From Calothrix sp. PCC 7716 (GTDB lineage: Bacteria; Cyanobacteriota; Cyanobacteriia; Cyanobacteriales; Nostocaceae): a stretch of 64,000 bases of DNA. Positions 59,969-63,173 of the stretch are shown piece after piece. Location: NCBI RefSeq assembly GCF_019977735.1, contig NZ_AP025018.1, positions 11,040,580 to 11,104,579 of the forward strand. Direction: 5' to 3'. The notes under the pieces are model-generated. The model searched no databases and was not told the DNA's origin. It worked only from the letters and a program-made list of their open reading frames with translations. A program made the translations under genes and the position numbers. The number at the start of each line of letters is the position of its first letter. The first letter of the stretch is position 1.

Positions 59969-60204
59969 GTAGTTACTTAAATAATAGATTGATACACAGG
60001 TGACATACCTGTAAAACAAATAAGGCGATATTTTTTAATCTTAACCATAGATGATGGACATGCAAGTGATGTTATCATTTTGACCTACCCTTATAGGGTA
60101 AAGAAAAAATGAACTTTTTTGTCAGATGGTCAAAAAGTGATTGCGATTGAGACAACCAAGTTTAACCTTAAAAATATAATCGTTATTTGCAAGGGAACTT
60201 TTGT

Positions 60205-61542
60205 GTGAGTGCATTTACCTCTATGTCATCTCCAATTAGTTTACTAATTCGCCGTGCAAGCATCATTTTACCTGATGGTACGTACATGGTTGGGGATGTA
60301 CTAACGCGCGGCGGAATGATCGTCGAAATTGGGCCCGACATTGAAGCCACGAGCGCGACTACGGAAATTGACGCAGAAGGGTTAACTTTGTTGCCTGGGG
60401 TTATAGACCCGCAGGTACACTTTCGCGAACCGGGACTCGAACATAAGGAGAACCTGTTTACTGCAAGTTGTGCTTGTGCCAAAGGCGGAGTCACTTCGTT
60501 TTTAGAGATGCCGAATACGCGACCTCTAACTACTACTCAGCAAACCCTGGACGACAAGTTACAGCGTGCGTCACAAAAGTGCCTAGTTAATTATGGCTTT
60601 TTTATTGGAGCAACGTCCGAAAATTTACCTGATTTGCTTTCGTGTAACCCCACATGCGGAATCAAAATTTTTATGGGGTCAATGCACGGTCAGCTTTTGG
60701 TTTCGGAGGAAACTTTACTCGATACAATATTTGCTTCGGGTTCGCGCTTGATTGCGGTTCATGCCGAAGACCAAGCGCGTATTAACCAACGGCGCCAAGA
60801 ATTTGCTGGTATTACTGACCCAGCAGTTCATTCTCAAATTCAAGATAACCAAGCTGCACTTCTAGCAACCAAACTAGCATTAAAACTATCTAAAAAATAT
60901 CAGCGGCGGTTACATATTCTGCATATGTCTACAGCAGATGAAGCAGAGTTGTTACGTGAGGATAAACCAAGTTGGGTTACGGCAGAAGTGACACCACAGC
61001 ATTTGCTCTTAGATACAAGCGCTTATGCAAAAATTGGAACCTTAGCGCAAATGAATCCTCCCCTACGTACATCTCACGACTGTGAAGTACTATGGCAAGC
61101 GCTACACGATGGTGTTATTGATTTTATTGCTACTGACCATGCACCTCATACTTTGGAAGAAAAAGCTCAACAGTATCCTAATAGTCCTTCTGGAATGCCT
61201 GGAGTTGAGACTTCGCTCTTGCTAATGCTAACCGCAGCAATGCAGGGTAAATGTAGCGTTCATCAAGTCGTTAACTGGATGTCTACTGCTGTAGCCAAGG
61301 CTTATAAAATACCAAACAAAGGGGCAATTGCTGTAGGCTATGATGCTGACTTAATACTAGTTGACTTGAAAACATATCGTCCTGTACTGCGCGAAGAACT
61401 ATTTACGAAGTGCGGATGGAGTCCTTTTGAGGGGTGGAACTTGACGGGATGGGTACAAACTACTATTGTCGGTGGTCAAATCGTTTATCACCAAGGTAAA
61501 CTTTGTACCTACGTGCGCGGTCAAGCTTTGCAGTTTGGTTAA
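60205..61542 (+). CDS. pyrC: Dihydroorotase
   Basis: About 445 residues. DPQVHFREPGLEHKENL has the HxxR metal site (HFR), FLEMPNTRPLTT is conserved, HAEDQARI and HILHMSTADEAELL bring further metal His residues, and DFIATDHAPHTLEEK the catalytic Asp. It forms dihydroorotate in pyrimidine synthesis. GTG 60205 has AAGGGA upstream; ATG 60223 and TTG 60187 are alternative starts. Confidence 0.93.
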   Translation: MSAFTSMSSPISLLIRRASIILPDGTYMVGDVLTRGGMIVEIGPDIEATSATTEIDAEGLTLLPGVIDPQVHFREPGLEHKENLFTASCACAKGGVTSFLEMPNTRPLTTTQQTLDDKLQRASQKCLVNYGFFIGATSENLPDLLSCNPTCGIKIFMGSMHGQLLVSEETLLDTIFASGSRLIAVHAEDQARINQRRQEFAGITDPAVHSQIQDNQAALLATKLALKLSKKYQRRLHILHMSTADEAELLREDKPSWVTAEVTPQHLLLDTSAYAKIGTLAQMNPPLRTSHDCEVLWQALHDGVIDFIATDHAPHTLEEKAQQYPNSPSGMPGVETSLLLMLTAAMQGKCSVHQVVNWMSTAVAKAYKIPNKGAIAVGYDADLILVDLKTYRPVLREELFTKCGWSPFEGWNLTGWVQTTIVGGQIVYHQGKLCTYVRGQALQFG

Positions 61543-61952: not shown

Positions 61953-62246
61953 ATGATAATAAATAGTTCAAAACAATCTTTAAATTATCTATTTTTTCGG
62001 ATAGAAGAGATATTTAATGTTAAATGGATACTTGATTATTTGAAATATGAATATATATATTGGCTGAATTGGGCGCCTTTGATATTGACGGTTATCTGGA
62101 CTACATTCTACCAGTTCAGAAAATTTTTTAAAAACAGTCAAAAAAAATCCGGATTGCACAAGAGGCAGGGTGTAATTGGACTTGATGTATTTAAACTCGA
62201 AACTAAATTCAGTTTACATACTCCCTTAATGCCTGTATCTATTTGA
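61953..62246 (+). CDS. Small hypothetical protein, one membrane segment (doubtful)
   Basis: 97 codons from ATG 61953. One hydrophobic stretch (about residues 36-53, IYWLNWAPLILTVIWTTF) and a basic tail. No family recognised and no clear ribosome binding site. The patS-like promoter element at 62148-62176 lies within it. It may be a chance frame or a small membrane peptide. Confidence 0.3.
   Translation: MIINSSKQSLNYLFFRIEEIFNVKWILDYLKYEYIYWLNWAPLILTVIWTTFYQFRKFFKNSQKKSGLHKRQGVIGLDVFKLETKFSLHTPLMPVSI
62148..62176 (+). promoter_or_regulatory. Putative DIF-type promoter of the patS-like gene
   Basis: TCCGGA (62148-62153), 17 bases, TGTAAT (62171-62176). TCCGGA at the -35 position is the motif reported for promoters induced in differentiating heterocysts (NsiR1 type). 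The -10 differs from TATAAT by one base. Transcription would begin near 62183, leaving a leader of about 120 bases. Confidence 0.45.
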
Positions 62247-62303
62247 TTCTGGGAAATAAATATTTGCAAAGTAAAACTATTAATTAAAATCGAGGAAAGA
62301 AAA

Positions 62304-62429
62304 ATGATGATATTTTTTGACTGCGAAAGAGGTAGCGGTAGAGTTGATGCAGTAATGTTTTTAAGTGATGATAGAGGTAGCGGCAGAATTGACACTATAG
62401 TTGATACTATGATGGGCACCAACTCATAA
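62304..62429 (+). CDS. patS: PatS-like heterocyst inhibition peptide with two RGSGR motifs
   Basis: 41 codons. The N-terminus is hydrophobic (MMIFFDC), as in PatS of Nostoc PCC 7120 (MLVNFCD), followed directly by ERGSGR. RGSGR occurs at residues 9-13 and again at 24-28, in the contexts CERGSGRVD and DDRGSGRID, 15 residues (45 bp) apart. RGSGR is the known diffusible inhibitor that binds HetR. GAGGA at 62292-62296 is spaced seven bases from ATG 62304. Classical PatS ends with the motif; here both copies are internal, so proteolytic release would be needed. It overlaps the convergent sigma factor gene by six bases. Confidence 0.75.
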   Translation: MMIFFDCERGSGRVDAVMFLSDDRGSGRIDTIVDTMMGTNS

Positions 62430-63059
62430 ATAGCCTTCGCTTTCTGCAAATTGACGTAACCTAGGTATACACTGACGCTGGTAAAAACTGCTCAAAGTCG
62501 AAACTGTTAATCCGTATTCGTTCGCTAATTCCTTCCAACTAACTTCTGGTGGTAAACGTTTCAAGATTAATACCTGACAATTTACATCGGGTCGTCCTTG
62601 AATATAAGTTTGACGCAAGTCTCCTGATATATCAGCTTCTGCCCACAACTGAACATTTTCTAAAATAGGGGGAGCATCAGGAGGTGCAGCAATATTGTCT
62701 ACAGGGTCATATATATCACTTTTATCACCCGAAGCTAACTGCTGTATGCCCAAAGATGCTTTTCTGATATTGTCTTCTTGTGTTTTTAGGTATAAATCTT
62801 GTAACCTATGCTTTAAGTACGCATTCAGCCACGTTACAACCGTTCCCCGGTCAGGGTCATAACCCTCGCAAATATTTCGGCAGAAATATAACCAAGTTTG
62901 CTGTAAAGCGTCTTGATAATAAGAAGTATTTTCTCTCCACAGTCTGACGGTAACTAAACGAATAATTTGCGTCAAAACTCTAGCTCTTTGTGGACTTCCG
63001 GGTGGATGTCCACAAGCTTCTTCAACTAATCGACGTAATTGTTCCTCCAATCCACTCAT
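62424..63059 (-). CDS. Sigma-70 family RNA polymerase sigma factor-like protein
   Basis: About 211 residues from ATG 63059 (MSGLEEQLRRLVEEACGHPPGS); the frame is open to 63155. A region-2-like part (YYQDALQQTWLYFCRNICEGYDPDRGTVVTWLNAYLKHRLQDLY) and a region-4-like helix-turn-helix (VSWKELANEYGLTVSTLSSFYQRQCIPRLRQFAE) are seen. It is a short, alternative (ECF-like) type common in filamentous cyanobacteria. The stop codon overlaps the end of the patS-like gene, so antisense interference is possible. Confidence 0.8.
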   Translation of the reverse strand: MSGLEEQLRRLVEEACGHPPGSPQRARVLTQIIRLVTVRLWRENTSYYQDALQQTWLYFCRNICEGYDPDRGTVVTWLNAYLKHRLQDLYLKTQEDNIRKASLGIQQLASGDKSDIYDPVDNIAAPPDAPPILENVQLWAEADISGDLRQTYIQGRPDVNCQVLILKRLPPEVSWKELANEYGLTVSTLSSFYQRQCIPRLRQFAESEGYL

Positions 63060-63173
63060 GCAATAGTTCAAGCCAAACGATGCTAACTGAGTATTGCTTA
63101 TGGTCTGCATAAGTAATATTACCCTTGATGGTGATATTACCTGTTTGATGAGCAAAGGGGAAGGCTTTAGTTC

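Follow-up and report, generated by a model that had tools for sequence, protein, structure and literature searches.

The minigene at 62304..62429, on the plus strand of the window (the whole 64-kb stretch of DNA analysed here), carries the pentapeptide RGSGR twice within 41 codons. We read it, with a probability of roughly two in three, as a patS gene of the Calothrix/Dulcicalothrix type, in which the signal unit has been duplicated in tandem and the precursor would release one [D/E]RGSGR peptide per unit.

A tandem minigene in the window

The open reading frame translates to MMIFFDCERGSGRVDAVMFLSDDRGSGRIDTIVDTMMGTNS followed by a stop codon. As given by the translation and by the alignment, the first RGSGR comprises residues 9-13 in the context DCE-RGSGR-V (62328..62342, plus strand), and the second comprises residues 24-28 in the context SDD-RGSGR-I (62373..62387, plus strand). 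Beneath both motifs the DNA forms a direct repeat spaced by 45 nucleotides (62325-62347 and 62370-62392), the copies of which are 87% identical. The ribosome binding site GAGGA is located 7 nucleotides upstream of the ATG (62292..62296, plus strand) and consists of the same letters in all seven aligned members of the genus. An earlier sequence-only reading had described the frame, its coordinates, the positions of the motifs and the GAGGA site, all of which were reproduced when the sequence was read again.

The product resembles PatS in being a very short peptide (41 residues, two RGSGR) that contains the pentapeptide. PatS carries its motif at the C-terminus, whereas here 13 residues follow the second RGSGR. 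The curated PatS model NF047415 scores the minigene at 24.5 bits, below the cut-off of 30, and a Pfam search with the product yielded no match up to an E-value of 0.1.

The chance expectation was derived from first-order Markov DNA built from the window. Among 24.0 million simulated codons RGSGR occurred 12 times, corresponding to approximately 12 single occurrences in the six frames of the own genome (12.37 Mb). Likewise, two single-motif patterns gave 8 and 12 matches in the own genome, compared with 10 and 14 in the respective reversed controls. On its own, a single RGSGR thus carries little weight, since it is expected by chance and matches are no more common than in reversed controls. In contrast, the 24.0 million simulated codons did not contain any two motifs in the same frame within 60 codons, and the pair in the minigene is conserved across ten genomes, on the grounds of which an origin by chance or as a simple repeat was rejected. 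The same-frame pair in this conserved minigene is not due to chance.

Three other short frames with [D/E]RG(S/T)GR are present in the own genome; most or all of them may be chance occurrences, as the reversed control is equally frequent. A hydrophobic peptide of 47 residues with an ERGSGRI end (L274; G000:C1:8796861-8797001, minus strand) was noted as well. Its counterpart in G060 (L275) has an internal motif, and that in G061 is a shorter frame lacking the motif. This peptide is possibly another PatS-like peptide, or chance.

The minigene probably occupies the patS locus

The minigene lies downstream of pyrC, the dihydroorotase gene that serves as the synteny marker of the patS locus (60187..61542, plus strand; NCBIfam NF005751, 803 bits). 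As the single-motif patS is found in this position in many other Nostocaceae, the minigene is best read as the patS of its own genome. A frame of 97 residues upstream of the minigene (61953-62246) has no match in Pfam or NCBIfam.

The stretch that follows pyrC, with a length of at most 3.5 kb, was surveyed on the pyrC strand in 60 genomes from 35 genera, four of the 60 stretches being shortened by contig ends. One short RG(S/T)GR frame was present in 31 of them, ending with the motif in 20 and continuing into a tail in 11; the remaining 29 stretches contained none. The patS position is thus common and not universal. In the surveyed genomes patS is often absent or located elsewhere, and some of the 29 motif-less loci (e.g. 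those of G019 and G042) belong to genomes with a match to the patS model at another site.

NF047415 scored above its cut-off in 66 of the 211 genomes of the family; at E-values up to 10 it matched in 9 of 14 control genomes, none of them above the cut-off. In other genera, 27 of the 30 top-scoring loci of the patS model are located within 3 kb of pyrC (11 as judged by pyrC sequence in the 1.5 kb upstream, the rest by map positions), with that of G011 in the opposite orientation. The two genes are far apart in G205 and on different contigs in G042; for the model locus of G106, pyrC was not among the matches listed. At least two RG(S/T)GR copies were seen in none of the 60 pyrC loci of other genomes and in none of the 30 patS-model loci. 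In the ten genomes with the tandem gene, the model gave no match above the cut-off, weaker matches having been inspected in part, and no relative has a broken frame. Hence, a distinct patS elsewhere together with a broken minigene frame in close relatives, which the sequence-only reading had named as a finding that would count against it, was not encountered.

Two further groups of frames were noticed in the course of these searches. Short frames in g8, g30 and g48 (L184-L187, L189 and L190) contain DERGSGR followed by F or L, with GEHHVNMD-like residues before the motif; they are located at sites other than the pyrC locus and possibly represent an additional PatS-like gene. In G033 and G035 of genus g11, the frames L015 and L016 end with FLECERGSGRI(G/R)(T/S)AVSGG, and the surveyed stretch downstream of pyrC is devoid of an RGSGR frame.

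On its other side, the minigene faces a convergent sigma-70-like gene (62424..63155, minus strand), which matches TIGR02937 weakly (20.5 bits, cut-off 42.9). In both tandem genera the genes follow one another as pyrC, patS and the convergent sigma-like gene. As the two genes overlap by 6 nucleotides at their 3′-ends, the minigene might be conceived as a spurious frame, or as nothing but the 3′ untranslated or antisense region of the sigma-like gene. However, the ribosome binding site, the start codon and the motifs are conserved in the genus, the conservation is at the protein level with synonymous change, and other genera have a single-motif patS near pyrC. Moreover, when the sigma-like protein was used as query against 90 patS/pyrC stretches of other genomes, it matched only one, with 25% identity. 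We consequently give next to no credence to a spurious frame.

Two to four conserved units in two genera

The two-motif gene is present in all seven genomes of the window's genus; the sequence-only reading had proposed to check whether both motifs are conserved. In the sister genus g9 the gene carries three (G028 and G029) or four (G027) copies of the motif. The tandem genomes include Dulcicalothrix desertica PCC 7102, Calothrix sp. PCC 7103, NIES-4105 and HK-06, Calothrix elsteri CCALA 953 and the Calothrix metagenome-assembled genomes FI2-JRJ7, CSU_2_0 and C42_A2020_038. All 24 RGSGR copies of the ten genomes are intact, and in the alignment the codons of the motif vary only synonymously, while linkers and tails drift. 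In every copy the motif is preceded by E or D and followed by V or I, and the units are spaced by 15 residues in all genomes but G028, where the spacing is 14.

We compared substitution rates by the Nei-Gojobori method over 29 codons, which offer few sites and are too short a frame for a firm dN/dS test of constraint. The three most distant pairs gave pN/pS values of 0.092/0.330, 0.169/0.248 and 0.157/0.346. In two close pairs pN was likewise lower than pS; the third close pair differs by a single change in all, which is non-synonymous, and here pN is not lower.

These data bear on the possibility that only one unit works, the second being a neutral tandem duplicate that is still undecayed. 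In its favour, tandem duplications are common within genes, and G094 has a single unit (FDCERGSGR) that looks like the first unit of the minigene. However, both units are intact in 7/7 genomes of the window's genus and all units in the 3/3 genomes with more copies, and all 24 motifs keep RGSGR despite the changes in their codons and the drift of the sequences around them. We therefore regard it as improbable that the second unit is a neutral duplicate.

In the window's genus the order of the units is fixed, with E-RGSGR-V first and D-RGSGR-I second in 7/7 genomes. This arrangement would suit two signals, namely an ERGSGR and a DRGSGR that differ in release, timing or affinity, serving the set-up versus the maintenance of the pattern. 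Yet all ten units of the sister genus are D-RGSGR-I, and substitution of the first residue left the affinity unchanged, according to the excerpts of the HetR-PatS6 study on which we draw (PMC4649674). A division of labour between the units thus appears rather far-fetched.

To place the tandem state in the phylogeny, pyrC trees were inferred. In a tree of 27 rows, picked by hand from 41 rows so that the tandem rows and those next to them were retained, the six tandem rows form one clade with a support of 99/97 (bootstrap not settled), and the tandem state requires one change. In the quick tree of all 41 rows the support of the tandem clade is 90. The simplest reading of these trees would be a single origin, followed by either gain to three or four units or loss to two.

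Scanning GTDB genomes for repeats with an exact period of 15 codons, an approach that is blind to other spacings and missed G028, returned ten stretches, eight of which are Calothrix/Dulcicalothrix records. The other two come from an uncultured cyanobacterium, where the match lies in a polyketide synthase, and from one Kribbella record, which was taken as a chance match in GC-rich DNA. As for weak matches within the family, several of those that were translated lack RGSGR, and others (G141) contain it in a repeat broken by stop codons.

The duplication probably concerns PatS and not PatX

PatX was rejected as the identity of the minigene, since each of the ten tandem genomes has, besides the minigene, a PatX of its own with one motif. 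From this it follows that the duplication lies in PatS and not in PatX. As judged by eye, the minigene product has neither the Sec-type signal nor the proline-rich Y/H-RGSGR context of PatX. No patX was found near hetR in G000, G028, G063 and G064, in stretches reaching approximately 9 to 20 kb from hetR; the gene is located at another site. HetN has its RGSGR inside a ketoreductase, whereas the minigene encodes a peptide of 41 residues to which no Pfam domain could be assigned.

HetR is present in all 12 genomes searched (the ten tandem genomes and two others), and R223, E253, E254, D256, D270 and D278, which have been described as its peptide-binding residues (PMC4649674, in part), are identical in 12/12. 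The receptor of the inhibitor thus has unchanged binding residues in these genomes. The PatS-like identity put forward in the sequence-only reading gains from the pyrC position, from the presence of both motifs in 7/7 congeners, from the DIF1 box of the own genome and from the intact HetR; that reading had missed the position at the patS locus and the extension to three and four copies in the sister genus.

Promoter elements

DIF1 is a promoter box that has been described, in the portion of the source used here, for patS, patX and hetR (PMC7377430). Upstream of the minigene a DIF1 box TCCGGA, presumably the -35 element of a heterocyst-type promoter, is located 156 nucleotides before the ATG (62148..62153, plus strand); the hexamer occurs 4 times in the window. 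By eye, the sequence TGTAAT 17 nucleotides after the box (62171..62176, plus strand) may represent the -10 element, and many canonical patS loci with DIF1 show, again by eye, TGTA 16-17 nucleotides past the box.

The box is exact in four of the seven members of the genus, including the own genome, and the other three have the one-letter variants TCCTGA, TCCGGG and TCCGGT. Of the named strains, Dulcicalothrix desertica PCC 7102 has TCCGGA and Calothrix sp. PCC 7103 has TCCTGA. No DIF1 box was found within 900 nucleotides upstream of the three sister-genus loci. DIF1 precedes the motif by 628-687 nucleotides in 16 of the 30 model loci, compared with 180 nucleotides before the first motif in the window, and TCCGGA is absent within 900 nucleotides in 14 of these 30 canonical loci. 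The patX genes of all ten tandem genomes (L286-L295) have a DIF1-type box exactly 62 nucleotides before the ATG, which reads TCCGGA in the seven genomes of the window's genus and TCCGGG in the three g9 genomes. Thus, TCCGGG possibly functions as DIF1 in the tandem clade, as a variant of this lineage.

A precursor that would be cut into its units

From transcription through cleavage and diffusion to inhibition, we infer the following steps. Transcription of the minigene would be induced in differentiating cells, giving rise to a short precursor with two HetR-inhibitor units, each made up of [D/E]RGSGR and a subsequent V or I and recurring about every 15 residues. Translation would take place in the cytoplasm, and proteolysis on either side of each unit would yield two hexapeptides, ERGSGR and DRGSGR, per precursor. 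These would diffuse along the filament, occupy the two HetR hood clefts and release HetR from the DNA, and the dose would be set by the number of units that a precursor carries.

This scheme can be set against the HetR-PatS6 study (PMC4649674). According to it, two PatS6 hexapeptides bind one HetR hood dimer, the free amino group of PatS6 being held by E254 and D256 of HetR, and Arg223 is located near the C-terminal carboxyl group of the bound peptide. N-termini of at least seven residues are expected to bind HetR worse, and the hexapeptide XRGSGR, in which X can be any residue, is regarded as the most probable mature form. These contacts, as far as they are given there, favour excised hexapeptides over an uncut bivalent ligand, and they suggest that D is tolerated in place of E. 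Regarding the cleavage, PatP is a peptidase reported for PatX, and cleavage of PatS is assumed to take place in the cytoplasm (PMC12756182, in the part considered).

If left uncut, the product could be bivalent and gain avidity by filling both hood clefts of one HetR dimer, or bridging dimers, with its two RGSGR motifs. The binding of two PatS6 per HetR dimer (PMC4649674, in part) would be in line with such a ligand, as would the spacing of 15 residues, from which only the units of G028 deviate. However, in the high-affinity mode seen with PatS6 the N-terminus takes part through its free amino group, and the carboxyl group of the C-terminus is close by (same excerpts). The spacing is 14 in G028, copy numbers of three and four exceed the two sites, and in the arrays of G308 and G224 described below the units recur at other intervals, mostly of 15-16 and 11-12 residues. 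We therefore consider an uncut bivalent ligand unlikely, and excised hexapeptides remain the preferred form of the signal.

RG(S/T)GR arrays in other proteins

Repeated inhibitor motifs were also found in proteins of other kinds. All 11 genomes of g38 (G156-G166) carry one to four RGSGR units in NifJ (pyruvate:ferredoxin oxidoreductase; L246-L256), the identity of which rests on the model TIGR02176 (1363 bits) in G157 and on like sequence in the other g38 genomes. The units, which are RGSGRDKVPSEIVAA-like, are spaced by 15 residues; all 33 copies read RGSGRD, and the codon changes are synonymous. As the linker is fairly conserved too, a homogenised duplication would be possible. A NifJ-like frame of G075 (L191) has one unit, as seen by eye. 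A search for [D/E/G]RGSGRDK matched in 19 of 211 genomes, 11 of which are the g38 genomes with their NifJ, compared with 8 matches in 7 genomes in the reversed control. The other 8 genomes yielded an RG(S/T)GR frame in two cases only, both of the simple-repeat type.

The polyketide synthase mentioned above is a PfaA-like protein of the uncultured cyanobacterium bin-0982 (G198; L175 974-6550 (L175/L011), minus strand) and contains four EEDERGTGRVNSILG repeats of 15 residues. Outside the Nostocaceae, in family f9, two small proteins begin with a hydrophobic stretch like that of PatX and contain 17 (L298, G308) and 11 (L302, G224) RGSGR motifs, the likeness to PatX being a resemblance only. The spacing is 12-16 residues in L298 and 11-12 in L302 except for a first gap of 23. 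Within 500 nucleotides upstream of L298 and L302 no exact DIF1 was found; L302 has TCCGGT at -186. These two proteins are the real arrays among the matches of the order search, in which 8 of 388 genomes matched: three further matches belong to the window's genus, and in G076, G313 and G493 the matched frame contains no RG(S/T)GR.

The arrays in NifJ, in the polyketide synthase and in the PatX-like proteins suggest that the number of signals and their carrier can evolve, with receptor and pentapeptide remaining fixed. Tentatively, arrays of the inhibitor pentapeptide might be a recurrent device of filamentous cyanobacteria, in which the copy number per carrier would provide an evolvable dose control, late heterocyst enzymes would carry the inhibitor and release it when made or turned over, and signals would derive from polyproteins. 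This proposal covers PatS with 2-4 copies, the PatX-like proteins with 11 and 17, NifJ with 1-4 and the polyketide synthase with four RGTGR. If true, it would generalise the principle known from HetN.

Implications and comparison with known systems

The PatS-HetR pair is a model for a Turing-type system in bacteria, and its precursor is usually described as holding a single inhibitor unit. Terminal heterocysts are formed by filaments of the Calothrix type, and a link of this trait to the copy number in PatS is speculation on our part. The results suggest that a developmental signal is adjusted via the number of copies per precursor in some Calothrix-type cyanobacteria. A clade with patS genes of two, three and four units constitutes a natural dose series, which makes it testable whether the inhibitor yield per transcript sets the spacing of heterocysts. 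Moreover, the tandem patS makes testable whether the mature signal must be excised from its precursor.

In the open-access literature we found no description of a multi-motif PatS, nor of RGSGR in nifJ; Elhai & Khudyakov 2018 lies outside this scope, and a prior mention is possible. A classical PatS with ERGSGR and an alternative, proline-rich PatS have been described, and the part of that paper considered makes no mention of a repeated motif (PMC5812504).

With PatX the minigene shares RGSGR, the non-C-terminal position of the motif and, in the own genome, an exact DIF1 box; it differs from PatX, for which a Sec signal is reported in the part of the source considered (PMC12756182) and which in these genomes has a proline-containing P-H-RGSGR. 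The likeness to the PatS of Anabaena and Nostoc (NF047415) comprises the location near pyrC, the short hydrophobic start, E-RGSGR, the unchanged binding residues of HetR and, in the own genome, DIF1 upstream. It differs from them in having two to four motifs, none of them C-terminal, with a short linker and a tail, in scoring under the cut-off of the model and in a DIF1 nearer to the motif. HetN has an internal RGSGR as well, yet it is a long enzyme of the ketoreductase type, unlike the 41-residue product of the minigene.

The precursor of the yeast alpha-factor contains tandem signal units, too, but it is unrelated and undergoes eukaryotic secretory processing. In Bacillota, tandem pheromone propeptides are matured into several active peptides, as stated in the part of the report used here (PMC11343458). 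The tandem Phr propeptides of these Rap-Phr systems thus resemble the minigene product in carrying several copies of a signal per precursor, and differ from it in sequence, receptor and phylum, which are unrelated: Phr is a secreted quorum signal (PMC11343458, same part), whereas the product of the minigene would be a patterning inhibitor acting within the filament.
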